Assembly: GCF_900090305.1 (NCBI RefSeq)
Contig: NZ_LT607751.1
Location: forward strand, 1,054,001 to 1,118,000
Direction: 5' to 3'
Length of the DNA: 64,000 nucleotides
Source: Micromonospora siamensis
GTDB taxonomy: Bacteria > Actinomycetota > Actinomycetes > Mycobacteriales > Micromonosporaceae
Positions 37,127 to 52,780 of this stretch are shown here, piece by piece. The position numbers and the translations under genes are program-made. A model generated the notes under the pieces. That model did no database searches. It worked only from the letters and a program-made list of their open reading frames with translations, and was not told where the DNA came from. Within the stretch, counting starts at the first letter, position 1, and the number at the start of each line of letters is the position of its first letter.

Positions 37127-38340
37127 TGCCGGACGTCTTCGCCGACCTGGTCGGGCAGGAGGAGGCGGTCGACACCCTGCGGCGGGCCGCCGCCTCGGCC
37201 GCCGCGGTGCTGCGCGCCGCCGGGCCGCCGGAGGCGGGATCGGGGCCCGACCCGTCGGCCGGGATGACCCACGCCTGGATCTTCACCGGGCCGCCCGGTT
37301 CGGGCCGCTCGGTGGCCGCCCGGGCCTTCGCCGCCGCGTTGCAGTGCGTGCACGGCACCGGCTGCGGCGAGTGTCCCGGCTGCCACACCACGATGACCGG
37401 CACCCACGCCGACGTCCGGCTGGTGGTGCCGGAGGGGCTCTCCATCTCCGTCGGCGAGATGCGCTCCCTGGTGCTGCGCGCCGCGAGCACACCGAGCGGC
37501 GGCCGGTGGCAGGTCGTGATCATCGAGGACGCGGACCGGCTCACCGAGGCGGCGGGCAACGCGCTGCTCAAGGCGATCGAGGAGCCGCCGCCGCGGACCG
37601 TCTTCCTGCTCTGCGCCCCGTCCACCCACCCCGACGACGTCTCGGTGACCATCCGGTCGCGCTGTCGGCTCGTACCCCTGCGGCAGCCGCCGCCCGAGGC
37701 GGTGGCCGAGGTGCTGGTCCGCCGGGACGGCGTCGCGCCGGACGTCGCGGCCTGGGCCGGCGCGGCAGCCCAGGGGCACGTCGGGCGGGCCCGGCGGCTG
37801 GCCCGCGACCCGGAGGCCCGCACGCGGCGGGACGCGGTGCTCGCCGTGCCGCGCCGGCTGACCGGGGTGGGCGCGGCCTTCGACGCGGCGTCGGCGCTGA
37901 TCGAGGCGGCCGAGGCGGAGGCCGCGGCGTCCGTGGCCGAGGCCGACGAGGCCGAGCGGGCCGCGCTCCAGACGGCGCTGGGTGCCGGCGGCACCGGCCG
38001 GGGCGCGGCCGGCGCGATCCGGGGCGCCGCCGGGCAGCTCAAGGAGCTGGAGAAGCGGCAGAAGTCGCGAGCCACCCGGGCGCAGCGGGACGCGCTGGAC
38101 CGGGCCCTGGTCGACCTGGCCGGCTTCTACCGGGACGCGCTGACCACGGCGCTGCGTGCCCCGGTGGCCCCCGTGCACACCGACACCGCCGCGCTGGCCG
38201 CCGCCGGGGCGCAGAAGTGGGCGGCCGAGGGGGCGCTGCGCCGGCTGGAGGCGGTGCTGGAGTGCCGGTCGGCGATCGAGGCGAACGTCAAGCCGCGGAT
38301 CGCCGTGGAAGCGATGATGCTCGCTCTCTGGCGGGGCTGA
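37126..38340 (+). CDS. holB: DNA polymerase III subunit delta'
   Basis: 404 residues. Clamp-loader subunit. N-terminal AAA+ domain: GPPGSGRS at about residues 53-60, a P-loop whose lysine is Arg (delta' does not hydrolyse ATP), the zinc module C..CGECPGC, and the SRC motif IRSRCRLVPL. IIEDADRLTEAAGNALLKAIEEPP is the conserved Walker-B-like stretch. The C-terminal half has an Ala/Glu-rich helical insert. Coupled to the tmk fusion by overlapping stop/start, as in many bacteria. Confidence 0.95.
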   Translation: MPDVFADLVGQEEAVDTLRRAAASAAAVLRAAGPPEAGSGPDPSAGMTHAWIFTGPPGSGRSVAARAFAAALQCVHGTGCGECPGCHTTMTGTHADVRLVVPEGLSISVGEMRSLVLRAASTPSGGRWQVVIIEDADRLTEAAGNALLKAIEEPPPRTVFLLCAPSTHPDDVSVTIRSRCRLVPLRQPPPEAVAEVLVRRDGVAPDVAAWAGAAAQGHVGRARRLARDPEARTRRDAVLAVPRRLTGVGAAFDAASALIEAAEAEAAASVAEADEAERAALQTALGAGGTGRGAAGAIRGAAGQLKELEKRQKSRATRAQRDALDRALVDLAGFYRDALTTALRAPVAPVHTDTAALAAAGAQKWAAEGALRRLEAVLECRSAIEANVKPRIAVEAMMLALWRG

Positions 38341-38454
38341 CCCCTCCCCGTCCACAGGCATCGACAGGCGCGATTCGGGTGCGGTACGGTCCGGTGACGC
38401 CATGGTGACCATGGTGGGACGCTCAGTGAGGACCTGTCGGGGAGGAGTCCGCCG

Positions 38455-38784
38455 ATGCCGCGCGCGGAGATCGACGAGGCCTGGATCGAGGAGGCGGTGC
38501 GGCGCTACCGCCGCATCGAGTCCCTGCAGGCCGAGTTCGACCAGGCGGTGTCGACGGTCGAGGTCACCGTCCGCTCGCCCGACGGGCTGGTCGAGGTGGT
38601 GGTGACCGCCGGTGGCCGGATCACCGACGTCCGCTTCCTCGGCCCCCTGCACAACCGCCACCCCCGGGACGTGGCCGGCTCGGTGCAGGCCGCGGTCACG
38701 GCCGCCGCCGACGCCGCCCAGTGGGCCCGGGAGAAGCTGCACAACGAGACCTTCGCCGCCTACCGGCCGCTCGCGGGGGCCTGA
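38455..38784 (+). CDS. YbaB/EbfC-family protein
   Basis: 109 residues: helix-strand-strand-strand-helix pattern with VEVTVRSPDGLVEVVVTAGGRITDVRFLGPL in the middle, as in the YbaB/EbfC nucleoid-associated family. Here it leads a three-gene operon with WXG100-like proteins; mycobacterial EspL, also YbaB-like, stands with ESX substrates and acts with them. GGAGGAG precedes the ATG. TACGGT near 38382 may be its -10 box. So a chaperone-like role for the next two proteins is plausible (inference), besides DNA binding. Confidence 0.82.
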   Translation: MPRAEIDEAWIEEAVRRYRRIESLQAEFDQAVSTVEVTVRSPDGLVEVVVTAGGRITDVRFLGPLHNRHPRDVAGSVQAAVTAAADAAQWAREKLHNETFAAYRPLAGA

Positions 38785-38785
38785 G

Positions 38786-39091
38786 ATGGACCGGCTGCAC
38801 ACCCTCGCCGCCCGGCTCGACGAGGCCAGCGACACCCTGGCCGCCCTGGCGCACACCGTCACCGCCACCGACCCCGCCCACCCGGTCTTCGGCGCCGACG
38901 CGCCGGGGCGTCCCGGCGAGATCGGCCGGGCCCTGCACCGGCGCTGGACCGAGGCCACCGGTGACCGGGCCCGGGAGGCGGCCGCCGCCGCGGCCCGGCT
39001 CGCCGCCGCCGCGGCCGCCGTCCGCAGCGCCGCCGACCGCTACGCCGACGTCGACCACGCGGCCCGCCGCCGGCTCACCAGGGAGGCCTGA
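38786..39091 (+). CDS. WXG100/EspC-like small helical protein
   Basis: 101 residues, almost entirely helical, with two helices separated near residues 35-45 (PVFGADAPGRPGEIG) and a Trp in HRRWTEATGDRAREA. The shape matches type VII secretion targets of the ESAT-6/EspC kind, but no strict WXG is present. Starts one base after the YbaB stop; its own stop overlaps the next start (TGATG). No ESX machinery genes lie in the window. Confidence 0.65.
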   Translation: MDRLHTLAARLDEASDTLAALAHTVTATDPAHPVFGADAPGRPGEIGRALHRRWTEATGDRAREAAAAAARLAAAAAAVRSAADRYADVDHAARRRLTREA

Positions 39092-39768
39092 TGGACGCCC
39101 TGGACCGGCTCGCCGAGCCGGGTCTGGACCTGCTGCGCCGGGTGGACACGCTGCTCGCGGCCGGCGCGCCGGAGGGGCATCAGGTCTGGCCGCTGCTGCG
39201 TCGGATGCAGGTGCTCCCCGGCGACGCGCTGCGCGCCTTCCTCGACCTGCACCCGGCGCCGCTGGCCTCCGCCGGGCACGCGGTGCGCCGGCTCGTCCGG
39301 GGGTACGACGACGCCGGCGCCGCCCTCACCGACCCCGGGCTCTGGTCCGGCCCGGCTGCCGGCGCGTACGACCAGGCCCGGTCGGCCCTGCTGCGCCACC
39401 TCGACGAGGGGCCGGAGAGCCTGGTGGGCCGGTTGGAGGCGACCGCGGGTTACGCCGACGCGCTCGCCGAGTGGGTGCAGGGCAGCCGGCTGGCGGTGGC
39501 CCGGGTGCTGGGCGACGTGCTCGGCTGCACCGAGGCGGTGGCGGTGGTCGCGGCGACCTCGGGCGGCGGCGCCACCCCGTCCGGCGGCGCCGGGGTGGCC
39601 GAGGCCGCGGAGATCGCGGCCCGGGTGCTGGCGGTGCTCGGCGTGGCGTACGACGGGGCCGAGACCCTGCTGCGCCAGTGGTCGCCGAGCCTGGCCGAGT
39701 CGACCTGGCGGCCGTCGGTGGAGAGCGCGCCCCGGTGGGGCGGCGCCGGCACCCGCATCGGCCACTGA
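39091..39768 (+). CDS. WXG100-like protein, possible type VII secretion substrate
   Basis: 225 residues. The segment LTDPGLWSGPAAGAYDQARSALLRHLDEGPESLVGRLEATAGYADALAEW (about 79-128) has the W-x-G turn and flanking long helices of WXG100 proteins; an N-terminal helical region and a Gly/Ser-rich C-terminal part surround it. Coupled to the preceding gene by TGATG. Terminated by a strong hairpin. Function unknown. Confidence 0.65.
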   Translation: MDALDRLAEPGLDLLRRVDTLLAAGAPEGHQVWPLLRRMQVLPGDALRAFLDLHPAPLASAGHAVRRLVRGYDDAGAALTDPGLWSGPAAGAYDQARSALLRHLDEGPESLVGRLEATAGYADALAEWVQGSRLAVARVLGDVLGCTEAVAVVAATSGGGATPSGGAGVAEAAEIAARVLAVLGVAYDGAETLLRQWSPSLAESTWRPSVESAPRWGGAGTRIGH

Positions 39769-39802
39769 GCAACCGCGCGGCGTCCGGCTGCCGGTACGGC
39801 AC

Positions 39803-39852
39803 ACGGCGCCGCGCTCGGGAGCCGGCGCGCGCCGGCTCCGGCGCGGCGCCGT
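39803..39852 (+). terminator. Large two-tier hairpin terminator
   Basis: Outer 12-bp stem (39803-39814 / 39841-39852), small internal loop, inner 10-bp stem GAGCCGGCGC/GCGCCGGCTC. 50 bases in all. Beyond it to 40058 I see nothing else. Confidence 0.8.
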
Positions 39853-40058
39853 GGCCTTTCCCTGCACCCCCCGCAGGTCTTCCTCCACTCAACGCCGCGG
39901 GTCCGGCGCTGTCCCGGCCGTTCGCCGCGAATCAACCGTCCGGGCGAGGCGGGTCCGGCCGACGGGACGGGGGCCGTTCCGGCGAGTCGACGATCGTCGA
40001 CCGCTGCGCGGAGTGATCGTCCGGCGACGGCCGTCGGGCCGGGGCCGGACGCGGGACG

Positions 40059-40064
40059 TATGGT
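40059..40064 (+). promoter_or_regulatory. -10 box TATGGT, leaderless promoter
   Basis: TATGGT ends 6 nt before the ATG of the RicT-like gene. Confidence 0.55.
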
Positions 40065-40070
40065 GAGGGG

Positions 40071-40904
40071 ATGGGCATGCTCTGCGCGGTCAGCTTCAAC
40101 CGGTACGGGCGCCTCTACTACCTCGACCCGGGCGAGTTGAACCCGCAGGTGGGCGACAAGGTGCTGGTCCCCACCGACGACGGCCCCGAGGTGGCCGAGT
40201 GCGTCTGGGCCGCGCAGTGGGTCGGCGAGGACACCGACGGTTTCCCGAAGCTGGTCGGCCTGGCCCGGGAGGACGACCTGCGCCGGGACGAGACGCTGCG
40301 GCGGCGCAAGGCGGACGCCAAGGTCGCCGCGAAGCGGCTGATCCGGGAGCACGGCCTGCCGATGAAGGTGGTCGCCGTGGACCACGTCCTCGGCCCCGCC
40401 GAGGGCGGCGGTGAGCGGACCACGGTCTACTTCACCGCTCCGCACCGGGTGGACTTCCGGTCGCTGGTCCGGGACCTGGGCGCCACCCTGCACTGCCGGG
40501 TCGAGCTGCGCCAGCTCTCCGCGCGGGACTCGGCCCGGGTGCAGGGCGGCATCGGCTCGTGCGGCCGGGACCTGTGCTGCGCCACCTTCCTCAAGGACTT
40601 CGAGCCGGTCACCATCCGGATGGCCAAGGACCAGGACCTGCCGCTCAACCCGCTGCGCATCTCCGGGGCGTGCGGCCGGCTGATGTGCTGCCTGAAGTAC
40701 GAACATCCGCTGTACGCCGAAAGTGGCAGTTACCCATCTCCAGGTCAGCGAATCGAGACCCCTGATGGCCTGGGGAAGGTTGTGTCCCGGCATCCGCCGA
40801 GCGAGACCGTCACTGTTCGGCAGATCTCCGGTGGGGAGACCAAGCGGTGTTCCCTCTCCGACGTCTGCGGTTCCCGCCGCGCCTACGACTCGGGGACCAG
40901 CTGA
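40071..40904 (+). CDS. PSP1/RicT-family protein (YaaT-like)
   Basis: 277 residues. PSP1 C-terminal domain protein; in Bacillus YaaT/RicT belongs to the Y-complex that binds Fe-S clusters and affects RNase Y and development, and the gene is usually beside holB, as here. Conserved cysteines: GSCGRDLCCATFLKDF and SGACGRLMCCLKYEH. The first residue may be the ATG at 40071 or the ATG two codons later; the -10 box favours 40071. Fully intact. Confidence 0.93.
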   Translation: MGMLCAVSFNRYGRLYYLDPGELNPQVGDKVLVPTDDGPEVAECVWAAQWVGEDTDGFPKLVGLAREDDLRRDETLRRRKADAKVAAKRLIREHGLPMKVVAVDHVLGPAEGGGERTTVYFTAPHRVDFRSLVRDLGATLHCRVELRQLSARDSARVQGGIGSCGRDLCCATFLKDFEPVTIRMAKDQDLPLNPLRISGACGRLMCCLKYEHPLYAESGSYPSPGQRIETPDGLGKVVSRHPPSETVTVRQISGGETKRCSLSDVCGSRRAYDSGTS

Positions 40905-40983
40905 GCGACCGCCATCGACCCTTGCTACGACCCGGCAGCCCGTTCGATGGGGGGATCGGGGCGCCGGCCAACCCGCCGAACCC

Positions 40984-41126
40984 TCACTGCGACCACGCCG
41001 GTGAGAACTCAACCTCGATCAAATCGGCCTTCCAGATCGGCTGGCCGTTCTTCGGCCTTCCCTTGCCTCTTTGTCGGATCATGATTGCATCGAAGGCGCT
41101 CCGCAGTACCTGGCGCTGCTCGCCAG
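40984..41126 (-). pseudogene. Fragment resembling a recombinase C-terminus
   Basis: About 48 codons read LTGEQRQVLRSAFDAIMIRQ then GKGRPKNGQPIWKADLIEVEFSPAWSQ-stop. This looks like genuine protein, similar to the C-terminal tails of serine recombinases, and the DNA is less GC-rich than its surroundings. No start and no upstream part; the metallophosphoesterase stop abuts it. Weak identification. Confidence 0.35.
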
Positions 41127-42884
41127 TCAGGAGAGGGTGATGGGGGGCTCGGCCAGGTGGGGGGTCAGGGGGGTTTCCGGGGTCAGCCAGGAGGCGGTGG
41201 GGGACTGGTCGGGGTTGATCTGCCAGTTTCGGGAGACTCGGTCGACCGCGATCGGGTAGATGGTGAGCGTGCCGTCGGGGTCGATGCGCAGGCGGAGGAA
41301 GGACTTCGAGTCCTCGATGCCCTGCGCGGCGAAGAGCTCGTTGACGTTCACCCCGAACGCCCCCGCCACCAGCAGGTACGCCGCCACCAGCTCGGCGGCG
41401 ACGAAGCCGATCACCGGCCCGTACACGACCGCGGCGGCGACCGCCGGCAGCGGCCAGGGCCACCCGTAGAACGGCAGCATCAGCCACACCCAGGTGCCGA
41501 CGGCGGCCAGCGCCAGGTGCGCCAGGCCGTGGCTGACGCCGAGGATCCAGTGCCGGGCGTGCCGTTTGCCGCCGGCGCTGGGGGGCTTGGCGAAGAAGGC
41601 GGCGCCGAGCAGCGTCACCACCAGCATGATCATCAACGGTACGCTGAACAGTCGCTGCTCCGTCGTGCCGGCCCGGTCGTTGGCCACCCCGGCCATCGCC
41701 AGCATCAGCAACGTGTGCAGGGTGCCGAGCAGGGTGGTGAAGCCCGGGTTGCGGAACGGCAGCCGGGCGAAGATCCCCCAGCCGTACCGCCGTGAGCGGG
41801 CCTTCTCCGGGAACCGGGCGACCAGGTCGTACTCGCGGGTGACGCTGGCCCGCCGGGCGAGGGTGTCCCGCGGCGGCACCTCGATCCGCTCCGGCAGCAT
41901 GTGCGTGGGGTAGAGGTACGCGCCGCCGCCACCGCAGGTGATCAGCTGCCGCTCCGGGCCGGCGTACCGGGCGTAGTGGTGCAGGTCGCCGGAGAGCAGC
42001 AGCCGCACCTGCGCCCCGGTCGGGGCGACGATGGTCCGCACGAAGTAGTCGATCGAGTCGTACGCCGTGGGGTGGTCGACGGCCTTGACCCAGGTCGGCG
42101 CCGGCACCGCCAGGATCACCCGGCTCTGCGCGGTCAGCTTCTCCGCCACCTCGTCGAAGTAGCTGAGCTGCGGGTCGTCCAGGTACGAGCCGGACTGGTC
42201 GTCCAGCCCCAGCAGCCACCAGTCGGCCGGCAGCTCGATCGCGAAGTACGACCGGGACTGGCCGGTGCCCCAGCCGCCGAAGTGCCGGTCCCGGGACCGG
42301 ACGAAGAGCCGCAGGAACGCGGTCAGGCCGTCGTACCAGTCGTGGTTGCCGGGCACCGCGAACAGCGTCGGCCGGTCGGGCGGGCTGGCCGGCAGCGCCG
42401 CCTGGTACGGCCCCTTGCAGCGGTCCTCGTAGGCCGCGTAGCTGGCCGACGGGTAGACCTGGTCGCCTCCCATCACCAGGGTCTGCGCCCGGGGCAGCCG
42501 CTGCCCGTCCACCGTCAGCTCCGGCTGGGCCAGCAGATAGGCGATCGAGTAGGTGGCGTTGAAACCGTCACCCAGGTCGGCCACGTAGTCCAGCCACAGA
42601 CCGCCGTCCGGCCCGACCTGCTTGGAGATCTTCGCGTCCAGCGCGTTCTGCAGCTCCCGCTTGTCCAGGTACGCCCCGAAGAGCATCGCCAGCAGCGTTC
42701 GGATGCCGGTGCTGATCAGCAGGAACGGCGCCAGCCACGGCACCGGCTTGCGGGGCGTGAAGCCCAGCTCCAGCGGATCGGTGCTGCGCGGCCGATGAGC
42801 GGCCCGAGGCAGCTCGCTGCGCTCGGGCCCGGCCGGTGCGTCGGGCTGGTCGGGGTTCCCGGCCGGTACGCGATCGTCGGTCAC
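41127..42884 (-). CDS. Membrane-associated metallophosphoesterase
   Basis: 585 residues. Calcineurin-type metal motifs are present: VMGGDQVYPS, VPGNHDWYDG and LLSGDLHHYARY. One hydrophobic segment lies near residue 55-72 and four more in the C-terminal third (LLGTLHTLLMLAMAGV, LFSVPLMIMLVVTLLGAAFF, HLALAAVGTWVWLMLPF, VVYGPVIGFVAAELVAAYLL). So the phosphatase domain is followed by a membrane domain. Substrate unknown. GTG at 42884 chosen since TACGCT lies 7 nt before it; the longer frame would run through that promoter. Confidence 0.85.
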   Translation of the reverse strand: MTDDRVPAGNPDQPDAPAGPERSELPRAAHRPRSTDPLELGFTPRKPVPWLAPFLLISTGIRTLLAMLFGAYLDKRELQNALDAKISKQVGPDGGLWLDYVADLGDGFNATYSIAYLLAQPELTVDGQRLPRAQTLVMGGDQVYPSASYAAYEDRCKGPYQAALPASPPDRPTLFAVPGNHDWYDGLTAFLRLFVRSRDRHFGGWGTGQSRSYFAIELPADWWLLGLDDQSGSYLDDPQLSYFDEVAEKLTAQSRVILAVPAPTWVKAVDHPTAYDSIDYFVRTIVAPTGAQVRLLLSGDLHHYARYAGPERQLITCGGGGAYLYPTHMLPERIEVPPRDTLARRASVTREYDLVARFPEKARSRRYGWGIFARLPFRNPGFTTLLGTLHTLLMLAMAGVANDRAGTTEQRLFSVPLMIMLVVTLLGAAFFAKPPSAGGKRHARHWILGVSHGLAHLALAAVGTWVWLMLPFYGWPWPLPAVAAAVVYGPVIGFVAAELVAAYLLVAGAFGVNVNELFAAQGIEDSKSFLRLRIDPDGTLTIYPIAVDRVSRNWQINPDQSPTASWLTPETPLTPHLAEPPITLS

Positions 42885-42891
42885 GGGCGGG

Positions 42892-42897
42892 AGCGTA
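42892..42897 (-). promoter_or_regulatory. -10 box TACGCT, leaderless promoter
   Basis: TACGCT (minus strand) ends 7 nt before the GTG of the metallophosphoesterase. Confidence 0.5.
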
Positions 42898-43019
42898 CGC
42901 CCGGATCGCGGGGGAGCGCTGTCCGCCGGGCGACCGAACGTGCCTCGATGTCCGGATCCCGGGGTTGGGGTATCCGGTTCGGCTGTCCGGGGTGGGGTGC
43001 CGTACACTTGACGATCGTT

Positions 43020-43093
43020 GCCGCCTTAGCTCAGTCGGCTAGAGCGACGCACTCGTAATGCGTAGGTCGACGGTTCGATTCCGTCAGGCGGCT
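43020..43093 (+). tRNA. tRNA-Thr, anticodon CGT
   Basis: 74 nt, complete cloverleaf: acceptor GCCGCCT/AGGCGGC with discriminator T, D-arm GCTC..GAGC, anticodon stem ACGCA/TGCGT with loop CTCGTAA (anticodon 43054-43056), T-arm GACGG-TTCGATT-CCGTC. CCA is not encoded. TACACT at 43003-43008 is a likely -10 box. A terminator hairpin and an integrase remnant follow directly, so the gene probably served as an integration site. Confidence 0.97.
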
Positions 43094-43100
43094 CGGTACG

Positions 43101-43127
43101 GAAGCCCAGGTCAATGACCTGGGCTTC
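43101..43127 (+). terminator. Terminator of tRNA-Thr
   Basis: Perfect 13-bp stem GAAGCCCAGGTCA / TGACCTGGGCTTC with a single-base spacer. The stop of the integrase remnant (minus strand) falls inside it. Confidence 0.8.
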
Positions 43128-43380
43128 GCCGTTTCCCGAGGTCGACAACACCGTCGCGGTCCGCAACCAGTCCCGCATCCCGCGCCGCGACCGCCTCGTC
43201 CAGCCGGGTGGCGACCGCGTCCAGGTCGTCACCGAGGAGGCCCCCGTACGCGTCCAGCGTCATCGACGCCGAGGCGTGCCCGAGCATCCGCTGCACCGCC
43301 TTGACGTTGGCGCCCGCCGCCACGGCCAGACTCGCCGCCGTGTGCCACAGGTCGTGCGGAGTCAGGCCCGCCAGCCGCAC
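43111..43380 (-). pseudogene. Tyrosine-recombinase (integrase) remnant
   Basis: 89 codons matching the C-terminal catalytic part of phage-type integrases: LTPHDLWHTAASLAVAAGAN..VQRMLGHASASMTLDAYGGL. Box II should read H-x-L-R-H; here the arginine is Trp, which would abolish strand cleavage. The tyrosine in LDAYGGL is kept. The N-terminal two-thirds are missing. It lies directly behind tRNA-Thr, pointing toward it, as integrases of tRNA-inserted elements do. Confidence 0.85.
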
Positions 43381-43382
43381 GA

Positions 43383-44297
43383 TCAGCAGTCCAGCACGGC
43401 AGTCGCATTGTCCTCGATCTGCACCACGTCGGGGTCCCGGCGCAGAGCTTGAACCTGAGCGTCAGTCATGTCGGCGGAGAAGCTGTTGATGAAGTCGAAC
43501 ACTCTGCTCGGGGAGACCCCGGCTCGCGCGGCGACGGTGAGCGGATCACCGCTGCAACGAACGCCAACTATGTACTCGCCATCGACGCGCCGTTCCTGTG
43601 GGGCACGGAAATGCGGTGCAAGCCGCTCGGGGTCGGGCTCGATGCGATCGATGTCGGGGTCTTCGGAAAGTGCCGGCCCCCCGGCCCTCGGCGACTGTTC
43701 CAACTGCAGGCCGGTCAGCCTGACGCCGAATCCCCACGAGGCGACGATGCGGTACAAGCCGTCGGGCGAGAGCTGGTGCCGACTGAGTATCTGATACAGA
43801 TCGACTCCCGGCTTGACGATGACGAGGTAGTCGTTCTCAGCGGAGCGCCTCGCATACAGCGCCTCCAACGAGTGCGGCTCGGGTTTCGACTCGTTTTCGA
43901 TGGCGTTCAGCATGGCGGTGGGGTCGTAGCCTCGCTCGCGCGCCTTGATGGCGAGATGCGCCGGAGGGCGGCGGCGCAGCTGCGCGGACGCCTGCGTCCC
44001 CCTCGACTTGTGCATGCCTTCGAGGCTCAATTCGTCGAAGGGGTGCCAGGGCTGATAGGCGTTGGGATATTCGGCCCGCAACGAGTCGTGGTCTGCCGGC
44101 AGATCCTGCACCGCGACCCTGATCGAACGCACCGAGCGCGTCGGCAGACTCGCCGACCCGCCAGCCGGATCACGGACGAAGACGAAGTCCGGTGTCATCG
44201 TCACGAAATGAGCCGGATACGACCGAACCTCGCCATCTTCCTGCTCGATCTCCACCATGTACGGCAGATACACCGTCGGATCCGGCCACTCCGTCAT
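43383..44297 (-). CDS. Protein with two tandem I9 (subtilisin-propeptide)-like modules
   Basis: 304 residues, cytoplasmic (no signal peptide or membrane helix). An N-terminal domain of about 150 residues that I do not recognise is followed by two similar modules, residues 155-222 (DYLVIVKPGVD..GFGVRLTGLQLEQ..DPDIDRIEPD) and 241-300 (EYIVGVRCSGD..FSADMTDAQVQALRRDPDVVQIEDN). Both follow the propeptide/proteinase-inhibitor I9 pattern that normally precedes a subtilase, but no protease domain is attached. Start ATG at 44297 has GGGAGG; an ATG at 44321 overlapping the upstream stop (TAATG) would add eight residues. Slightly lower GC than neighbours; probably acquired. Inhibitor or protease-regulator role is inference. 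Confidence 0.7.
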   Translation of the reverse strand: MTEWPDPTVYLPYMVEIEQEDGEVRSYPAHFVTMTPDFVFVRDPAGGSASLPTRSVRSIRVAVQDLPADHDSLRAEYPNAYQPWHPFDELSLEGMHKSRGTQASAQLRRRPPAHLAIKARERGYDPTAMLNAIENESKPEPHSLEALYARRSAENDYLVIVKPGVDLYQILSRHQLSPDGLYRIVASWGFGVRLTGLQLEQSPRAGGPALSEDPDIDRIEPDPERLAPHFRAPQERRVDGEYIVGVRCSGDPLTVAARAGVSPSRVFDFINSFSADMTDAQVQALRRDPDVVQIEDNATAVLDC

Positions 44298-44320
44298 CAG
44301 TGCCTCCCCTGTGAATCCCA

Positions 44321-44527
44321 TTACGACCGGTTGCCGGTAGTGATCAGGAGCTTGCCGGTCACCCCGACCACGGCGAGGACGACGGCGACGGCGAGCAGGT
44401 GGAGACGCGGCCGGGGCGCCCGCACGACGTACGTCAGCAGACCGCAGGCTCCGCTGAGGACCGCCATCGCGTACCACTGGAGAGTCGTCGGGGTGACCCG
44501 CCCGATGAAGAGCATCCAAGTGGCCAT
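44321..44527 (-). CDS. Small two-helix membrane protein
   Basis: 68 residues with hydrophobic helices at about 17-36 and 44-63, short basic segment between them (RAPRPRLH). GGAGAGG precedes the ATG. Its stop overlaps a possible start of the I9-module gene, so the two probably form a unit. No family recognised. Confidence 0.6.
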   Translation of the reverse strand: MATWMLFIGRVTPTTLQWYAMAVLSGACGLLTYVVRAPRPRLHLLAVAVVLAVVGVTGKLLITTGNRS

Positions 44528-44556
44528 TTCGGCGCCTCTCCGGCGGTAGTCGAGGG

Positions 44557-45195
44557 TCAGCGGAGGAAGCTGAAGACCACCTCCGTGGCGTCCAGCGGCC
44601 GGGGCGCGCCCTCCAGCCGGTGAACGCCCACCGAGAACCGTACGCCGTCGGGAGCGTGGAAGGCCTCCTCCACGAAGCCGGCCTCGCGGAGCCAGGCCCG
44701 GATGGCGGGGTTCAGGTCGGGTGCGCGACGTGCCCTGGTCCAGATCACGGTGGCGCCGGCCGCACACAGTTGGGGCAGGGCGGCGACCGTTCGTCGTACG
44801 TCGGAGTCGGAGATGTTGCCGAAGACCCCGACCATGAGCACGAGATCCGCGGGAACCGCCCCGACATACGACGAGAGGTCTCCGGCGTCCGCCTGCCTGA
44901 CCGCGAGGTTCGACAGCCCGGCCCGGTCGGCGGCGGACCGGGCCGCGCCCACGTTGCGCTGGTCGTACTCGATGAGGGTGCACCGGACGCGACGGGCGTC
45001 CGGGCGTGCGGCCAGGACGCCCACGAGGTCGTGGCCCTGCCCCGCGCACGCGCTCACCACGGTCAGCCGCTCCTCGGAGCGCTGGTCCAGCCACGAGGCG
45101 ATGTGCTGCTGGACCAGCCGCAGCCGACGCGACAGTGGAGAGTCCGGGTCGGCGTAGGGCTCGTGCCACGCCTGCCAGTCGGTTCGGGCGGTCAT
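44557..45195 (-). CDS. Class I SAM-dependent methyltransferase
   Basis: 212 residues. Rossmann motif I VVSACAGQGHDLVGVLAARP, motif II TLIEYDQRNV, and RQADAGDLSSYVGAVPADLVLMVGVFGNI are recognisable. Acceptor unknown. Start ATG at 45195 with AGGGTGAG upstream; an in-frame extension to 45441 overlaps the divergent sigma-factor remnant and is not credible. It precedes the small membrane protein by 29 bases. Confidence 0.85.
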   Translation of the reverse strand: MTARTDWQAWHEPYADPDSPLSRRLRLVQQHIASWLDQRSEERLTVVSACAGQGHDLVGVLAARPDARRVRCTLIEYDQRNVGAARSAADRAGLSNLAVRQADAGDLSSYVGAVPADLVLMVGVFGNISDSDVRRTVAALPQLCAAGATVIWTRARRAPDLNPAIRAWLREAGFVEEAFHAPDGVRFSVGVHRLEGAPRPLDATEVVFSFLR

Positions 45196-45282
45196 CCGGC
45201 TCACCCTGCCAGAAGGAGGCCGCCGACGATGCCCGTCCGGGCCGGGGGAACCATCGGTCGGGTCCAGGGCCCTCAATAAGGT

Positions 45283-45777
45283 ATGGGCTTGCTTCGCAGG
45301 GCGGAACCCGACGGCTACGAGGAGTTCGTCGCCGGCCGGTACCGGGAGATCGTCCGATTCGGCGCACTGCTGGCCGGTGACACACGGTTGGGTGAGGATC
45401 TCGCCCAGGAGGGCCTGATCGCGGCCTACCGGTCGTGGCATCGGCTGGACGTGCCCCAGGGGCGACCGGAGGCGTACGTCCGGCAGGTGATGGTCCGTAC
45501 CGCGATGCGTGCCAGGCGCCGGCGCTGGCGGGGCGAGGTCCGACCGGGGAGTTGCCGGACCGGTCCGGGCGGGACTTCGCGGATCAGTCGGATCTCAGTG
45601 TGCTGGTGCTGGCCAGTCTGCGCTGGCTCCCCGCCGACCAGCAGGCGATCTCGACCGGGGGCGGCCGGGTCCGGGTCCCGGCCGGGCTGGGCCAGTCAAG
45701 GGCAGCCGAAAGGCCGTTGACCGGGCGCTGGTCACCTGCTTTGCTGCGTCGCGATTGACCTTGCAGGTCTTTCGCTG
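45283..45777 (+). pseudogene. Broken SigE-family ECF sigma factor gene
   Basis: The first 85 codons are a normal SigE-family start: YEEFVAGRYREIVRFGALLAGD..GEDLAQEGLIAAYRSWHRL..PEAYVRQVMVRTAM. At about 45537 the homology shifts to another frame (PTGELPDRSGRDFADQSDLSVLVLASLRWLPADQQ), then most of region 4 is missing and a third frame gives the tail GPVKGSRKAVDRAL. At least two frameshifts and a deletion. No functional product expected. Confidence 0.85.
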
Positions 45778-45801
45778 ACCTCTCACCACTTTGGAGCTGC
45801 C

Positions 45802-46203
45802 ATGTCCCCCATTGATGCCGTCAAATCGGTCTTTTCCAATTACGCGAGCTTCGGCGGTCGGGCCCGCCGGTCCGAGTACTGGTGGTTCGCCCTCTTCTCC
45901 TGGGTCGTCAGCATTGTCGCCAGCGTCCTTGACGGTGCGTTCGGCACCCAGATGGGTTCGGGTTCGCTCGGCGTGATCGGACTGATCGTCACCCTGGCTC
46001 TCCTGCTGCCGAGCATCGCGGTCGCCGTGCGGCGGCTGCACGACACCAACCGCGCGGGCTGGTGGCTGCTGATCGCGCTCATCCCGCTGGTCGGTGCCAT
46101 CGTCCTGATCGTGTTCTTCGCGATGGAGGGCACCCGTGGCGAGAACCGGTTCGGCGCGGACCCGAAGACGGCCTCCTACGGTGTCGCGCCCGGTATCGCC
46201 TGA
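45802..46203 (+). CDS. DUF805 membrane protein
   Basis: 133 residues with three to four helices. FGGRARRSEYWWFALFSWVV near the start and AVAVRRLHDTNRAGWWLLIALIPLVGAIVLIVFFAMEGTRGENRFG are the family signature. GGAG six bases before ATG. Function unknown. Followed by a strong terminator. Confidence 0.92.
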   Translation: MSPIDAVKSVFSNYASFGGRARRSEYWWFALFSWVVSIVASVLDGAFGTQMGSGSLGVIGLIVTLALLLPSIAVAVRRLHDTNRAGWWLLIALIPLVGAIVLIVFFAMEGTRGENRFGADPKTASYGVAPGIA

Positions 46204-46240
46204 CACGACTGATCGCCTGAGCTGAGTCGGCTCAGGCGCC

Positions 46241-46284
46241 GGCCGGCGGTGGAGGGGGAAGCCCGTCCACCGCCGGCCACTTTT
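46241..46284 (+). terminator. Rho-independent terminator after the DUF805 gene
   Basis: Perfect 13-bp stem GGCCGGCGGTGGA / TCCACCGCCGGCC followed by ACTTTT. Very strong. Confidence 0.9.
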
Positions 46285-46285
46285 C

Positions 46286-46345
46286 GCAACCAATCGTTGC
46301 GCATGTGCCGTCGGCTCCCTAGAGTGACAAGCAACCAAAGGTTGC
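46286..46345 (+). promoter_or_regulatory. Promoter overlapped by two ArsR-type operators
   Basis: GCAACCAATCGTTGC (46286-46300) and GCAACCAAAGGTTGC (46331-46345) are related inverted repeats. Between them: TTGCGC (46297-46302), 17-nt spacer, TAGAGT (46320-46325). The first site overlaps the -35 box, the second the transcription start. Expected target of the ArsR protein encoded downstream. Confidence 0.82.
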
Positions 46346-46368
46346 TCTAGTGACGAGGAGAGCCGGGC

Positions 46369-46860
46369 ATGGAGTACGGGAGCATCGAGCGGGAGATCCA
46401 CGTGGACGCGCCACCGGAAACGGTGTTCGACGTCGTCAGCAACCCCGCCCACATCCGCGACTGGTGGAACGCCGAGACCGACATCGAGCCGGTCGCCGGC
46501 AGCACCGGCGAGTTGACCTGGCGCGACGAGGCGACCGGCCGGACGGACGTCGTACCGATCACCGTGGGGGAGGTGCGACCGCCCCGGCTCTTCTCGTTCC
46601 GCTGGACGCAGGACGCCGGCCAGGCCGCCACCGCCGGCAACTCGCTGCTCGTGACCTTCGAGCTGACCCCGGCGGGTGACGGCACCCTGCTCCGGCTCAC
46701 CGAGACCGGTTTCCGCGAGCGCGGCTGGGAGATCGCCGTGCTGGAGAAGGCGTACCACGAGCACGTGACCGGCTGGGACTTCTTCCTGCCGCGGATCGCC
46801 GAGCGCGCCGCCCGCGTACCCGGGACGGAGCGCGACGACCGCGAGCCGGTACGGCCGTGA
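46369..46860 (+). CDS. SRPBCC (AHSA1-like) protein
   Basis: 163 residues. SIEREIHVDAPPETVFDVVSNPAHIRDWWN and the C-terminal helix ERGWEIAVLEKAYHEHVTGWDFFLPRIAE are typical of the activator-of-Hsp90 homologue/SRPBCC ligand-binding fold. Cytoplasmic. GAGGAG upstream of the ATG. First gene of an operon controlled by the ArsR-type sites; the next start overlaps its stop (GTGA). Confidence 0.92.
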   Translation: MEYGSIEREIHVDAPPETVFDVVSNPAHIRDWWNAETDIEPVAGSTGELTWRDEATGRTDVVPITVGEVRPPRLFSFRWTQDAGQAATAGNSLLVTFELTPAGDGTLLRLTETGFRERGWEIAVLEKAYHEHVTGWDFFLPRIAERAARVPGTERDDREPVRP

Positions 46861-47237
46861 CCACCCTCATCGACGACGACCTGTGGTCCGCGGTCGGCGA
46901 CCCCACTCGCCGTCGCCTGCTGGACCGGCTGCTCAGCGACGGCGCCGGCACGGCCACCAGCCTCAGCGAGCACCTGCCGGTCACCCGGCAGGCGGTCGCC
47001 AAACACCTCGACGTCCTCGACCGCGCCGGGCTGGTCCACGCGACGAGCGTCGGGCGGGAGAGGCGCTACCGGGTGGACGACGCCCAGCTCGCCCGCGCGG
47101 TCGCCCAGCTCGCCTCGGTCGGTGCGGCCTGGGACGCCCGACTGCGCCGGATCAAGACGATCGCCGAGGCGGTCCACCGCTCCCGGCAGCCCCACCCGCA
47201 CCCCGACCACGAGAAAGAGGGGAACGACCATGCCTGA
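46857..47237 (+). CDS. ArsR-family transcriptional regulator
   Basis: 126 residues. Winged helix: LWSAVGDPTRRRLLDRLL..TSLSEHLPVTRQAVAKHLDVLDRAGLV. No metal-binding cysteines are visible (His-rich tail HPHPDH), so it is probably not a metal sensor; ArsR proteins of this type commonly accompany SRPBCC genes. Start GTG overlaps the previous stop; end overlaps the next gene by 8 bases. Confidence 0.93.
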   Translation: MTTLIDDDLWSAVGDPTRRRLLDRLLSDGAGTATSLSEHLPVTRQAVAKHLDVLDRAGLVHATSVGRERRYRVDDAQLARAVAQLASVGAAWDARLRRIKTIAEAVHRSRQPHPHPDHEKEGNDHA

Positions 47238-47673
47238 GATCCTGCACCGCGTCGGCGCCACCGCTACTCCGGAGAAGGTGTACGACGCACTGACCACCCG
47301 GGACGGTCTGGCCGCCTGGTGGACCACCGACACCACGGGGGACGTCGCCGTCGGCGGCACCATCCAGTTCCGCTTCGGCGAGCCGGGCGGATTCGACATG
47401 AAGGTGCTCGACCAGCGGCCGAACGAGCGGGTCGAGTGGGAGGTCACCGACGGGCCGGCCGAGTGGATCGGCACCCGGGTGATCTTCGACCTGAAGCGGG
47501 CCGGTGACTGGACGATCGTGCTGTTCCGGCACGAGGGCTGGGCCGAGCCGGTCGAGTTCATGTACCACTGCAGCACCAAGTGGGCCACGTTCCTGGTGAG
47601 CCTGAAGCAGCTGATGGAGACCGGCATCGGTGCTCCGCACCCGCACGACGTCCGGATCAGCGACTGGCACTGA
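47230..47673 (+). CDS. Second SRPBCC (AHSA1-like) protein
   Basis: 147 residues. EILHRVGATATPEKVYDALTTRDGLAAWWTTDTTGDVAVGG and ATFLVSLKQLMETGIGAPHPHD follow the AHSA1 pattern. It shares the fold, not close sequence, with the first gene of the operon. GAAAGAGGGGAA lies upstream of the ATG. Confidence 0.92.
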   Translation: MPEILHRVGATATPEKVYDALTTRDGLAAWWTTDTTGDVAVGGTIQFRFGEPGGFDMKVLDQRPNERVEWEVTDGPAEWIGTRVIFDLKRAGDWTIVLFRHEGWAEPVEFMYHCSTKWATFLVSLKQLMETGIGAPHPHDVRISDWH

Positions 47674-47838
47674 CCCGTCGTCGCCGACCAGTCCTCGGAC
47701 TACCCGGGCGCTGCGACTTACCGGAGGGCGCGTCCGCGACCCGACAAACCGTCGACGGTACGGGCCGCGGCCGCGCTCCGGTGGGCGACCGCCGATCACA
47801 GTGGACCTGCGGGGTAGCACTGCTCCTCTACGGGCGGC

Positions 47839-48213
47839 TCACAGGACGTACGAGGCGACAAGCTGGCCGAGCTGTCGGATGTCCGAGCTGCCCTTGAACT
47901 CGAGGCGTACCTTGCCCAGACCGCTGAACCAGAGGTCGAGTTCAGCGTCGAGGTCGAAGGTGCCGGCGGTCTCGACGGAGAACGCCTGGATCCGGCTGTA
48001 GGGCAGGGAAGTGAAGTCCCGCTTCTTGCCCGTGATCCCCTGGACGTTCACCGCGATCAGCCGCTTGTCGGTGAAGACGACGAAATCGCGCGCGGCCTTG
48101 AAGCACGAGACCACCCGTTCCTGGGGGATCAGGAGCGGCGCGACCAAGGGGCCGAGTTCGTCGGCGCTGGCCGGGTGAAGCTTGAACACTGAGCCGTTGG
48201 AGAAGTCGATCAT
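47839..48213 (-). CDS. Bacterial PH-domain protein
   Basis: 124 residues. LVAPLLIPQERVVSCFKAARDFVVFTDKRLIAVNVQGITGKKRDFTSLPYSRIQAFSVETAGTFDLDAELDLW is the bPH_1/YokE-like pattern that forms pentameric or oligomeric PH-like assemblies. Function unknown. ATG 8 nt after TACACT. The 165 bases before the convergent SRPBCC gene show no terminator I can support. Confidence 0.9.
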   Translation of the reverse strand: MIDFSNGSVFKLHPASADELGPLVAPLLIPQERVVSCFKAARDFVVFTDKRLIAVNVQGITGKKRDFTSLPYSRIQAFSVETAGTFDLDAELDLWFSGLGKVRLEFKGSSDIRQLGQLVASYVL

Positions 48214-48221
48214 GAGCGGGG

Positions 48222-48227
48222 AGTGTA
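48222..48227 (-). promoter_or_regulatory. -10 box TACACT, leaderless promoter
   Basis: TACACT (minus strand) ends 8 nt before the ATG of the PH-domain gene. Confidence 0.5.
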
Positions 48228-48344
48228 GCCGCCCCGCGTGGGACGTCCGGTAGCCCGCCGGATCGCCCATCGGCCTGCGGACCGCCGGACCGGCCGTCAC
48301 CGGACGAGCGGAAAAACGTCCGCTCGAGCCGGACCGGACCTCGA

Positions 48345-48350
48345 TACAGT
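48345..48350 (+). promoter_or_regulatory. -10 box TACAGT, leaderless promoter
   Basis: TACAGT ends 6 nt before the ATG of the GNAT gene. Confidence 0.55.
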
Positions 48351-48356
48351 GCGCGG

Positions 48357-48902
48357 ATGTTCTCGATCGCACTAACCGAGGGCGCCGAGTTGCGCCCGCT
48401 GGAGCCGTGGCAGGCCGAGGAGTACCTCGCCCACATGGACCGGGCCCGCGCCGCCGTCGACCCGTGGATCCCGTGGGCCAGCCGGGCCACGGACGTGGAG
48501 TCGGCGCGAGCCATCCTCCAGCGCTTCGCCGACCTGGCCGCCCGGGACGCCGGCCGGCTCTACGGCATCTGGCTCGACGGCACCCTGGTCGGCGGCACGA
48601 TGTTCGTCTCCTTCGACGCCGCCGCCGGCACCTGTGAGCTGGGCTGCTGGCTGGAGCCGGCCGGGCAGGGCCGCGGCCTGATCACCCGGGCGGCCGGGCA
48701 CCTGGTCGACTGGGCGGTGCGGGTGCGCGGCATTCACCGTGTCGAGTGGCACTGCCGCCCGGAGAACGTCGCCAGCAGCAACGTGGCGCGGCGGCTGGGC
48801 ATGCGGCGCGACGGCGTGCTCCGCGAGGAGTTTCTCCACCAGGGCGTACGCCATGACACGGAGGTGTGGTCGCTGCTGGCGCGGGAGTGGACGGACCGCT
48901 GA
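48357..48902 (+). CDS. GNAT-family (RimJ/RimL-type) N-acetyltransferase
   Basis: 181 residues. LRPLEPWQAEEYLAHMDRARAAVDPWIPW at the start, the acetyl-CoA loop PAGQGRGLITRAAGHLVDWA, and HCRPENVASSNVARRLGMRRDGVLREE are characteristic of the RimJ/RimL class that acetylates N-terminal or side-chain amines. Target unknown. Start by the -10 box. Confidence 0.93.
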   Translation: MFSIALTEGAELRPLEPWQAEEYLAHMDRARAAVDPWIPWASRATDVESARAILQRFADLAARDAGRLYGIWLDGTLVGGTMFVSFDAAAGTCELGCWLEPAGQGRGLITRAAGHLVDWAVRVRGIHRVEWHCRPENVASSNVARRLGMRRDGVLREEFLHQGVRHDTEVWSLLAREWTDR

Positions 48903-49084
48903 GCCGGAGACACGCGACCGTCGCGGGACCGCGCGCGTCTCGTCGCTACGGTATCGTCCCATCGGTCAGGTGGTGGACCAGCCGTTCGTTGCTGTCACGG
49001 TTCGTCGATCTCTGCCAAACTGCGGTGACCGTCGCCCCACCGGGTCGACCGGTTTTCTCCTTCCCTTATTCACGGGGGTTCTTC

Positions 49085-51961
49085 TTGGCTCTCCGCCGTT
49101 CGGCGGTGGCCGCGCTCGCCCTGGCCGTCACCGGGACCATCGTCCCCTCGGTGGCCGCCGCCCAGGCCGCGCCGTCGCCCGACCACCCGCAGCTCAAGAA
49201 CATGCAGATCCCGCGGCCGGAGCGTGCCGCCGCGGCTGACAAGCCCGAGTTCGACCCGCACACCGTGCTGGTCAAGTTCAAGTCGGGCACCAGCAAGTCC
49301 GCCAAGGACCGGGCGGTGTCCCGGCGCAGCGCGCGCGTCGCGGCCAAGGTGGAGGGCACCGAGTACGTCAAGGTGCGCACCGACGGCTCGGCGCAGGATC
49401 TGCTGACCACGCTCCGCAAGGACCCTGCGGTCGTGAAGGCGACCTTGGACTACCGGCGGTACGCCACCACCACGCCGAACGACCCGGCCTACGTCTACGG
49501 TGACCAGGGCTACCTGAACACCGTACGGATGGCGGATGCCTGGAGCATCTCCCAGGGCACGACCTCCCAGGTCATCGCGGTGCTCGACACCGGTGTGATG
49601 ACCACCCACGAGGACCTGCTCGGTCGGGTGGTGAGTGGATGGAACGCCATCTCGCCGGGCTCCTCGTGGAGCGACAACAACGGCCACGGCACCGAGGTGG
49701 CGGGCATCGCCGGCGCGGCGACCAACAACGGCATCGGCATCGCCGGCACCGCCTGGTCGAGCAAGATCATGCCGGTGAAGGTGCTGGACGCCGACGGCGG
49801 CGGCACCGACTCGACCATCGCCGCAGGCATCAACTGGGCGACCGCCCACGGCGCGAAGATCATCAACCTGTCGCTGGGCGGCACCGAGGACAACCCGGTG
49901 CTGCACGACGCGATCAAGGCCGCCACCGCCAAGGGCGTCCTGGTGGTGGCGGCAGCCGGCAACGACGGCGACGACACCCCGCAGTACCCGGCGGCGTACC
50001 CGGAGGTCCTCGCGGTCGGTGCCACCGACGGTCGCGGCCGGATCACCGACTTCAGCAGCAGCGGCGACTGGGTGGACGTGGCGGCCCCGGGCTTCCACCT
50101 CACCAGCACCGCCTGGCACCCGGCCCACCCGACCGAGAACGACTGGTACGTCATCGGCGACAGCCAGGGCGGGGCCAGCGGCACGTCGTTCTCCGCCCCG
50201 ATGGTCGCCGGCATCGCCGCGCTGGTGCGTACCCGGAACCCGAAGATGACCCCGGCCCAGGTGCTGGCCCGGATCAAGGCCACGGCTCGGGACGCCGGCC
50301 CGCGCGGCATCGACCCGTACTACGGCGCGGGCATCGTCGATGCCAACAACGCGGTCGGCGGCCGGTGGGCGGCCGAGTTCCCCCAACTCACCATCGGCGA
50401 CTCCAACGAGACCCCGGCTCGGGCCACCGTTCTGCCCAACTACGGGACCTCCACCAACGCGAGCATCGGTGTCGAGGGTGACCTGGACTGGTACCGCATC
50501 GACGGTGCTCCCGGTCAGCGGTGGCGGGTGCAGGTCGCCCCGCCGGCCTACAACTCGGTGGCCCCGCAGAGCACCGACCCGGTGGTGGCGCTCTACGACG
50601 CCGACCTGAAGCTGATCGACGAGGTCGACGCGTACGGCCCGGGCGCCACCGAGCAGGTCGTCGGCACGCCCGGCACGGGCACCTTCTACATCCGGGTGCG
50701 CAACTACAACGGTGCCCGCGACGCGGCGAACTACATCCTCTCCACCTTCCCGGACGGCACCGCCACGCCGTCCACGCCCGGCGCGCAGGAGTGGGTGCGC
50801 AACGTGACGCCCACGCCGTACATCAACAGCCAGTCCCTGGCCACCCGGCCGACGGTGACGTTCGCCCGGAACGTGGACCCGGCGTCGGTGACCACCGGCA
50901 CGGTGAAGCTGGTCAACGGGCGTACCGGTGCGACGGTGGCGGGCACGCCGACGCTGAGCGGGTCCACCGTGACCTTCACGCCGGCTGCCCCGCTGCTGGA
51001 CTACACTCCGTACCGGATCGTGGTCGACGGCGTCCGGGACACCGCCGGCAACACCCAGGCGACGCCGTACTCCAGCGTCTTCCGGACCGTCGACACCGTG
51101 CCCGGCAAGGTCGGCTCGCTGACCGCCAAGGGCGTCTACCGGGGTGTCAACCTCAGCTGGACGCTGCCGAACATCACCGACCTGGACCACGTCGTCGTCC
51201 GGATGTCCCCCGGCCCGTCGGCGCCGGCCGGACCCACGTACGGCACCGGGTTGTACGCCCCCAACAACACGGCCGCCGCCGTCGCCAACCTGGTCCCGGG
51301 CCAGACCTACGCGTTCGGCATCTGGGTGGTGGACCGCTCCGGCAAGGTCAGCGGCGTCGCCGGCATCCGCGCCGTCGGCACCGCGACCAGCATCTCCAGC
51401 AACACCACCTCGATCGCGTACGGCGGCACGGTGACCGTGACCGGCAAGGTGACCCGCGTGGACACCGGCGCCGGCATCGCGGGCGCCAAGGCGGAGCTGC
51501 ACGCCCGCCGCAAGGGCACCACCACGTTCGTGGTGGTCGGCACGGCCACCTCCGCCGCCGACGGCACCCTGTCGTTCGCGCACAAGCCGTCGGGGGCGCT
51601 GGAGTACAAGTGGGTCTACCGGGGCGGTAACGGCCTGATCGGGGCGGCCAGCGGCCTGCGCGGCGTCTGGGTCGCCACCACGGTGTCGGCGACGCTGTCG
51701 GCGACGTCGATCCCGCTGGGCGGCTCGGTGTCGCTGACCGGCAAGGTCGCCCCCAGCCACGCCGGCCAGGCGGTCTACCTGCAGCGGTCGGTCAACGGGG
51801 CGTGGCACGACGTGATCGGGGCGAAGCTCTCGGTGACCAGCGCGTACTCGTTCGCCATCAAGCCGACCGCGAAGGGCACCTACACCTACCGGGTGCGCAA
51901 GCCGGGTGACACCGACCACGCGATCGGCTACAGCTCGCCGGTCAGCTTCAAGGTGTACTGA
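49085..51961 (+). CDS. Secreted S8 subtilisin-like protease with Ig-like C-terminal repeats
   Basis: 958 residues. Signal peptide LALRRSAVAALALAVTGTIVPSVAAAQA; I9-type propeptide about residues 55-130; S8 domain with Asp168 (VLDTGV), His201 (NNGHGTEVAGIAG) and Ser368 (GTSFSAPMVAGI); then a pre-peptidase-like beta domain (about 445-545), a bacterial Ig/SbsA-like domain and two Ig-like modules ending in AVYLQRSVNGAWHDVIG and KGTYTYRVRKPGD. Start: TTG at 49085 with GGGGG about 6 nt upstream is the only position giving a clean signal peptide; a GTG at about 49025 is an alternative. The neighbouring 3' gene duplicates its C-terminal modules. Confidence 0.9.
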   Translation: MALRRSAVAALALAVTGTIVPSVAAAQAAPSPDHPQLKNMQIPRPERAAAADKPEFDPHTVLVKFKSGTSKSAKDRAVSRRSARVAAKVEGTEYVKVRTDGSAQDLLTTLRKDPAVVKATLDYRRYATTTPNDPAYVYGDQGYLNTVRMADAWSISQGTTSQVIAVLDTGVMTTHEDLLGRVVSGWNAISPGSSWSDNNGHGTEVAGIAGAATNNGIGIAGTAWSSKIMPVKVLDADGGGTDSTIAAGINWATAHGAKIINLSLGGTEDNPVLHDAIKAATAKGVLVVAAAGNDGDDTPQYPAAYPEVLAVGATDGRGRITDFSSSGDWVDVAAPGFHLTSTAWHPAHPTENDWYVIGDSQGGASGTSFSAPMVAGIAALVRTRNPKMTPAQVLARIKATARDAGPRGIDPYYGAGIVDANNAVGGRWAAEFPQLTIGDSNETPARATVLPNYGTSTNASIGVEGDLDWYRIDGAPGQRWRVQVAPPAYNSVAPQSTDPVVALYDADLKLIDEVDAYGPGATEQVVGTPGTGTFYIRVRNYNGARDAANYILSTFPDGTATPSTPGAQEWVRNVTPTPYINSQSLATRPTVTFARNVDPASVTTGTVKLVNGRTGATVAGTPTLSGSTVTFTPAAPLLDYTPYRIVVDGVRDTAGNTQATPYSSVFRTVDTVPGKVGSLTAKGVYRGVNLSWTLPNITDLDHVVVRMSPGPSAPAGPTYGTGLYAPNNTAAAVANLVPGQTYAFGIWVVDRSGKVSGVAGIRAVGTATSISSNTTSIAYGGTVTVTGKVTRVDTGAGIAGAKAELHARRKGTTTFVVVGTATSAADGTLSFAHKPSGALEYKWVYRGGNGLIGAASGLRGVWVATTVSATLSATSIPLGGSVSLTGKVAPSHAGQAVYLQRSVNGAWHDVIGAKLSVTSAYSFAIKPTAKGTYTYRVRKPGDTDHAIGYSSPVSFKVY

Positions 51962-52024: not shown

Positions 52025-52780
52025 GTGCAGTCGCCTTTGAGACAGAGTGCGGCGAGCGCCGTCTCGGATTACGTGGGCAACCTGACCCCGGGTACGACCT
52101 ACTCGCTCTCCGCCTGGACGTTGGACACCTCCGGCCGGTACAGCCCGCGGGTAACCACCCGCGCGGTCGGCACCCGCACCACCATCTCCAGCAACGTGAC
52201 GACCCTCTACTACGGCCAGTCGTTCGTGCTGACCGGGCGGTTGACCCGCGTCGACTCCGGAGCCGGGGTGCCGGGGGCCCTGGTGGAGCTGCAGGCCCGG
52301 CGCCTGGGCACCACCAGTTTCCAGGTGGTGGCCACGGGGCGTTCCAGCAGCACCGGCGGGCTCTCCGCCAACTTCATTCCGCAGTGGGGCACGGAGTACA
52401 AGTGGGTGTACCGGGGGAGTTCGGGCGGTGGTCAGAACTCGTCCGGCGACTCGCTGATCGGCCAGGCCAGTCCGTTGCGCACCATCTCGGTGACCTCCCT
52501 GGTCTCCACGTACCTGCCCGTGGACAAGATCACCTTGGGGCAGTCGGCGGTGCTGTCCGGCACCGTCGCGCCGAACCACGCCGGCCAGGCGGTCTACCTC
52601 CAGCGCCTGGACAACGGCGCGTGGAAGGACGTGGCGGGCACCAAGCTCTCCTCGACCAGCGCGTACTCGTTCACCCTGAAGCCCTCGGCGAAGGGGACGT
52701 ACTACTACCGGGTCCGCAAGCCCGGTGACGTGGACCATCTGGTCAGCTACAGCAACCGGCGCACCCTGACGGTGAGCTGA
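52025..52780 (+). pseudogene. Decapitated paralogue of the S8 protease C-terminus
   Basis: 251 codons from a GTG, no signal peptide and no catalytic domain. It aligns along its whole length with the C-terminal ~250 residues of the upstream protease: TRAVGTRTTISSNVTT matches RAVGTATSISSNTTS, EYKWVYRG is shared, and VAPNHAGQAVYLQRLDNGAWKDV matches VAPSHAGQAVYLQRSVNGAWHDV. So it is the remnant of a tandem copy. A terminator lies between the two and no promoter is seen, so it is probably not expressed. Confidence 0.85.

Follow-up and report, generated by a model that had tools for sequence, protein, structure and literature searches.

What does a subtilisin propeptide do in a protein that carries no protease? 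The question is raised by the gene P0001, which lies in a 64,000-nucleotide stretch of Micromonospora siamensis DNA (contig NZ_LT607751.1, positions 1,054,001 to 1,118,000; hereafter, the window). Its product comprises a beta region, a helix-turn-helix (HTH)-like region and two modules of the Inhibitor I9 type, the family of the propeptides of subtilisins (S8 proteases; Table 1). An earlier note on this DNA had described two tandem I9-like modules in a protein with neither a protease domain nor a signal peptide, and both parts of that description were upheld. Both absences were evident in the sequence; the N-terminus was not hydrophobic, with a maximum 15-residue Kyte-Doolittle mean of 0.81 over the first 60 residues, and the 19-residue maximum for the whole protein was 0.85. 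The ATG at 44297 is the likely start of the gene, because the ribosome-binding-site-like sequence AGGGGAGG is found five bases upstream and the relatives P0003 and P0004 start at the equivalent point.

Judged by sequence comparison, both I9 modules are genuine. Module 2 scored above the Pfam cut-off for Inhibitor I9 (PF05922; 27.9 vs. 21.2 bits). Module 1 was not matched by this model, which gave a single I9 stretch in P0001; the relative P0012 had two such stretches, the better of which (residues 169–211) fell in module 1. In a profile-profile comparison (hhalign), module 1 matched S8 propeptides with a probability of 97.0%, whereas 50 shuffles reached 2.5% at most, and a control comparison of the HTH region with module 2 reached 13.8%, above the other controls. 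The propeptide set consisted of 12 sequences from related genomes, 10 of which had the S8 catalytic motif. The sequence profile of the modules likewise retrieved S8 propeptides, with one weak unrelated match (3ub1_A, E value 0.4) in another region. An I9 fold was also predicted for both modules: when the model of the tandem was compared with the PDB, subtilisin prosegments matched module 2 well and module 1 modestly, and single-module Foldseek matches to bacterial prosegments had root-mean-square deviations (rmsd) of 1.6–2.6. This match list tests mainly module 2, and the absence of other families from it carries no weight. The full-length prediction, based on 12 sequences, reached a predicted local distance difference test (pLDDT) score of 52.2 and was left out of fold matching. 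The S8 propeptides of related genomes, alike to the P0001 modules in sequence and predicted fold but part of a longer protein, are the likely source of the modules.

A match to P0001 was present in 25 of 354 Micromonosporaceae genomes. The full architecture was found in seven (the genome of the window, G145, G174, G301, G078, G079 and, in interrupted form, G227), the beta and HTH regions in duplicate with one I9 module in three (G008, G011, G054), the two I9 modules only in G232, and a fragment only in G350. The remaining 13 had partial matches, each within an open frame of 379–1136 codons; wide flanks were examined for three of the partial-match genomes (G175, G290, G215). Protein searches yielded 11 relatives of the window type (12 proteins with P0001), eight Actinoplanes-type proteins, a type with a duplicated beta and HTH front and a single I9 (among them P0014, a query, and the short P0021), and three two-module proteins named as Micromonospora (among them the query P0022). 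Phage records, plasmid records and viral contigs yielded no relative, although the window's own records were possibly excluded from them. One further locus, L045 9833–10051, held a frame with the last I9 and part of an Actinoplanes-type HTH, with an N-terminus-like stretch upstream in another frame, and is a decayed copy.

The text available from PMC6993865 describes a Glu and Asp/Asn pair with which I9 modules cap helices of the protease. Such an E-x-D/N pair occurred in both P0001 modules. E-x-D was found in all 15 first modules compared (12 window-type, three two-module proteins). Window-type second modules had the full pair in 10 of 12 cases and D/N in 12 of 12; for the second modules of two-module proteins the counts were 0/3 and 3/3 (D). 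The single I9 of the Actinoplanes type had E in 4/8, D/N in 6/8 and the full pair in 2/8, and the 12 S8 propeptides used for comparison had the full pair in seven and D/N in all. The motif RLAPHFR followed module 1 in all 12 window-type proteins. This motif is not necessarily an active-site tail, because its AP[HYF] core also precedes the single I9 of the Actinoplanes type (8/8), where no I9 module comes before it; the same core precedes the last I9 in the two-module proteins (3/3). The P0001 chain ends 13 residues past the DPDV motif, and the tail after the last strand varied across relatives.

On this basis we tentatively favor, with rather less than even confidence, a reading in which P0001 docks its I9 modules on a subtilisin-family protease and inhibits it. 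The protein would act inside the cell, its front part likely holding it on DNA as predicted from the HTH-like region, and the modules would dock onto the catalytic domain of the protease, blocking the enzyme. Each E-x-D/N pair would cap protease helices as in true propeptides, module 1 possibly being the better-kept docking module. Docking is supported by the sequence likeness to propeptides and by the capping pair of module 1. Two observations weaken it. No S8 relative was present at 11 other loci of the I9 family (219 genes called, including those of the window), and the genome's 17 S8 matches included no evident cytosolic target (15 had a called gene, nine of these with a strongly hydrophobic N-terminus). 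In the window, a subtilase that combines a fervidolysin-type prodomain with Big domains (49106–51961, plus strand, with 52073–52780) does lie about 4.6 kb from the I9 gene; as the 11 other loci yielded no S8 relative, it is probably a chance neighbor.

Stand-alone I9 inhibitors named in the available text of PMC6993865 include POIA1, yeast proteinase B inhibitor 2, SPI-1, TgMIC5 and SUB1-ProM, and P0001 resembles them in having the propeptide fold without a protease. With SUB1-ProM, as described there, its family also has in common the capping pair and a C-terminal tail that varies. However, the inhibitors named are all eukaryotic, whereas P0001 is bacterial and tandem, with additional beta and HTH-like regions; and SUB1-ProM has a signal peptide and a gene that adjoins subtilisin genes, whereas the P0001 family had no S8 gene beside it at the other loci. 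A literature search covering titles and abstract openings found no description of this bacterial protein, and PADLOC, NCBIfam and PHROGs gave no match for P0001 at an E value of 1.

The 150-residue front of the protein had been called unrecognised. This held for its beta half, for which there was no Pfam match and no known family; the second half resembled a Myb/SANT-like HTH. A profile search with the front region gave HTH-like matches, although P0001 itself reached no HTH model in the Pfam scan at an E value of 1. Matches at an E value of 0.01 or lower, mostly weak, were obtained in 11 of 397 genomes of the order and 13 of 394 of the class, the own genome being included in both. Among the 23 non-self matches, seven (L090, L092, L100, L102, L105, L108, L112) contained an LRxxYPNAYxPW...GRxxxAIRSRL-like pattern, and a rough pattern scan of both strands found no convincing HTH pattern in the other 16, six of which were also read as translated frames, some of these from the wrong strand. 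L108, an intermediate, passed PF13921 (Myb_DNA-bind_6; 26.0 against a cut-off of 22.9), and L102 narrowly passed a winged-HTH model. Aligned by hhalign with eight HTH-like stretches (the seven patterned matches and L071, from a Capnocytophaga metagenome-assembled genome), the window type reached 98.2% (50 shuffles, at most 1.6%) and the Actinoplanes type 98.1% (shuffles, at most 5.0%); the link is partly circular, since seven of the stretches had been found through the profile of the family itself and the eighth through its motif. None of the eight Actinoplanes-type relatives had an HTH model over the Pfam cut-off (best HTH_38, E value 0.013, in two of eight), and two had weak PHROG matches in this region (best E value of all, 0.0056), one to a family labelled transcriptional regulator. 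The second half of the front is likely a Myb/SANT-like HTH that has become degenerate in the P0001 branch.

The actinobacterial Myb/SANT-like proteins L100, L108 and L092 shared with P0001 the LRxxYPNAYxPW...GRxP pattern and the HTH spacing, but had no I9 module in the frames read. A beta region common to P0001 and L100-type proteins was considered and found unsupported (hhalign, 0.1% and 1.9%). L100, L108 and L112 were short actinobacterial proteins (open frames of 162–194 codons) whose C-terminal domain was Myb-like and whose front part was distinct.

The nearest competitor to protease inhibition involves no protease: the I9 fold would have been turned into a protein-protein adaptor or dimeriser carried by a nucleic-acid-binding protein, a substantial possibility to which we give about one part in three of our belief. 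It has a precedent in plants: as presented in the available text of PMC5515838, the RNA-editing factors DAL/MORF and ORRM1 contain I9-derived domains, which in ORRM1-like proteins are in tandem and joined to a nucleic-acid-binding domain. That domain is an RRM in ORRM1, described there for seed plants, and HTH-like in P0001. The MORF profile PF21864 was not listed for P0001 at an E value of 1, and its match in the two-module relative L044 was below the cut-off (13.5 vs. 27 bits); the likeness to MORF and ORRM1 is likely convergent. The adaptor explanation is weakened by the persisting close sequence similarity of the modules to S8 propeptides and by the retention of the capping pair, strict in module 1, while the HTH evidence is itself indirect. 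A more specific and somewhat unlikely proposal is that bacteria independently paralleled ORRM1, the propeptide having been detached, doubled and fused to a nucleic-acid-binding domain to give a mobile, DNA-bound protein that works as an adaptor or as a protease-responsive regulator, with the old inhibitor module as an interaction hub. More generally, a bacterial intracellular tandem of I9 modules with a likely DNA-binding domain would show that bacteria, too, have released the propeptide fold from its protease. P0001 offers a small soluble system in which to ask whether modules released in this way keep inhibiting subtilases or turn into adaptors.

The gene lies in DNA that is likely foreign by its composition. 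The block common to this and other Micromonospora copies had a GC content of 0.647, compared to 0.732 for the window and the lowest among 254 windows sampled, and the third-position GC content (GC3) of the I9 gene (0.797) was the lowest among 43 called genes longer than 150 residues. In G174, G301 and G145 the shared block was about 1.2 kb long, ending at the same points and lying in otherwise different surroundings. The G174 block sits among relaxase, coupling-protein and primase genes, which form a conjugative element; the relaxase part recurs in G227 (3.6 kb at 93%), where a DDE transposase interrupts the I9 copy. The earlier note's picture of a decayed mobile setting was borne out by the foreign base composition and by the integrase fragment beside tRNA-Thr (cgt), which is likely an old integration site. 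Apart from a 13-base match immediately beside the tRNA, no direct repeat of its end was found, inspection by eye showed no inverted repeats at either end of the 1.2-kb block, and the integrase fragment had no tblastn relative in the flanks of G174, G227, G301 and G145.

Such a setting could mean that P0001 is a decaying leftover, functionless in this strain, and the shortened block, the integrase fragment, the damaged neighbor gene and the split relative in G227 all fit this explanation. We consider it improbable, as the frame is intact and preceded by a good ribosome-binding site, and as purifying selection has maintained the family: the ratio of nonsynonymous to synonymous substitution rates (dN/dS) was 0.29–0.42 against five relatives. 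Against three close copies, the ratio was 0.06–0.08 in the beta region and, with few changes, 0.33–0.78 in the HTH region.

Less probable still is that the modules make up an ACT-like sensor pair through which a small ligand would control the DNA-binding part. Foldseek did align small subunits of acetolactate synthase and regulatory domains of aspartokinase over the whole tandem (best 2fgc, E value 5.8e-4, rmsd 8.1), but such whole-length matches had rmsd values of about 8 or more and mostly 8–15% identity, compared to 1.6–2.6 for single-module prosegments, and the sequence profile retrieves S8 propeptides.

That P0001 works together with the 68-residue membrane protein P0002 encoded upstream, as the earlier note had proposed from the overlap of its stop with a possible start of the gene and as their common strand would allow, is very improbable, since relatives of P0002 occurred in 21 of 354 genomes of which only G301 and the own genome also have a full-length I9 gene, the two lie more than 1 Mb apart in G301, and the junction reads as a scar beside a truncated membrane protein. 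An alternative ATG at 44321, which would give a product of 312 residues, does overlap the P0002 stop by one base, but this start is probably not used. The DNA similarity of P0002 to its relatives ended at 44344–44353, where the shared I9 block starts. Its C-terminus reads VTGKLLITTGNRS, whereas all five aligned relatives end in VTG(I/M)F(L/V)(T/V)D and have an extra N-terminal hydrophobic stretch that P0002 lacks. From these sequences, the overlap is a junction scar, the C-terminus of P0002 having been replaced where it meets the foreign block.

Table 1. Positions of the I9 gene, its parts and neighboring features in the window.
Feature	Position	Strand	Remarks
I9 gene (P0001)	43383..44297	-	304-residue product; beta and HTH-like regions, then two I9 modules
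N-terminal beta region, residues ~9–74	44076..44273	-	Strands in low-confidence model
Likely Myb/SANT-like HTH, residues ~75–133	43899..44075	-	hhalign to HTH-like stretches
I9 module 1, residues 152–223, insert of ~8 residues	43629..43844	-	
E-x-D helix-capping pair of module 1 (E220, D222)	43632..43640	-	
Inter-module linker motif RLAPHFR	43605..43625	-	
I9 module 2, residues 235–301	43395..43595	-	
E-x-N capping pair of module 2	43407..43415	-	
Ribosome-binding-site-like AGGGGAGG	44303..44310	-	5 bases before ATG 44297; read from sequence
Block common to other Micromonospora copies	43351..44346		blastn; 93.9–94.4% identity, three unbroken copies
Small membrane protein remnant (P0002), 68 residues	44321..44527	-	Functionally unlinked to I9 gene
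Tyrosine integrase, C-terminal fragment	43111..43380	-	PF00589, 31.7 bits, profile positions 127–165 of 172
tRNA-Thr (cgt)	43020..43094	+	Block abuts integrase fragment and this tRNA

The left end of the block, with up to three mismatches, was found in six of 354 genomes, four of them with the I9 gene; a reversed control gave one match. G158, which had no match to the I9 gene, contained about 100 bases (99) of the left end alone at 96% identity (L114 1429–1526), and this stretch suggests that the left end belongs to a separate mobile sequence. Between window positions 38001–50000 and the flanks of the three copies, nothing else was shared at an E value of 1e-8 except one stretch of 69% DNA identity, which links 44617–45194, in the adjacent methyltransferase gene, to L037 5471–6048, 3.6 kb from the I9 gene of G145. 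This methyltransferase was the only shared neighbor observed. At another locus (L059 5127–6464), a WXG100/EspC-like gene comes directly after a member of the small membrane protein family, and the two are possibly a secretion-linked pair.
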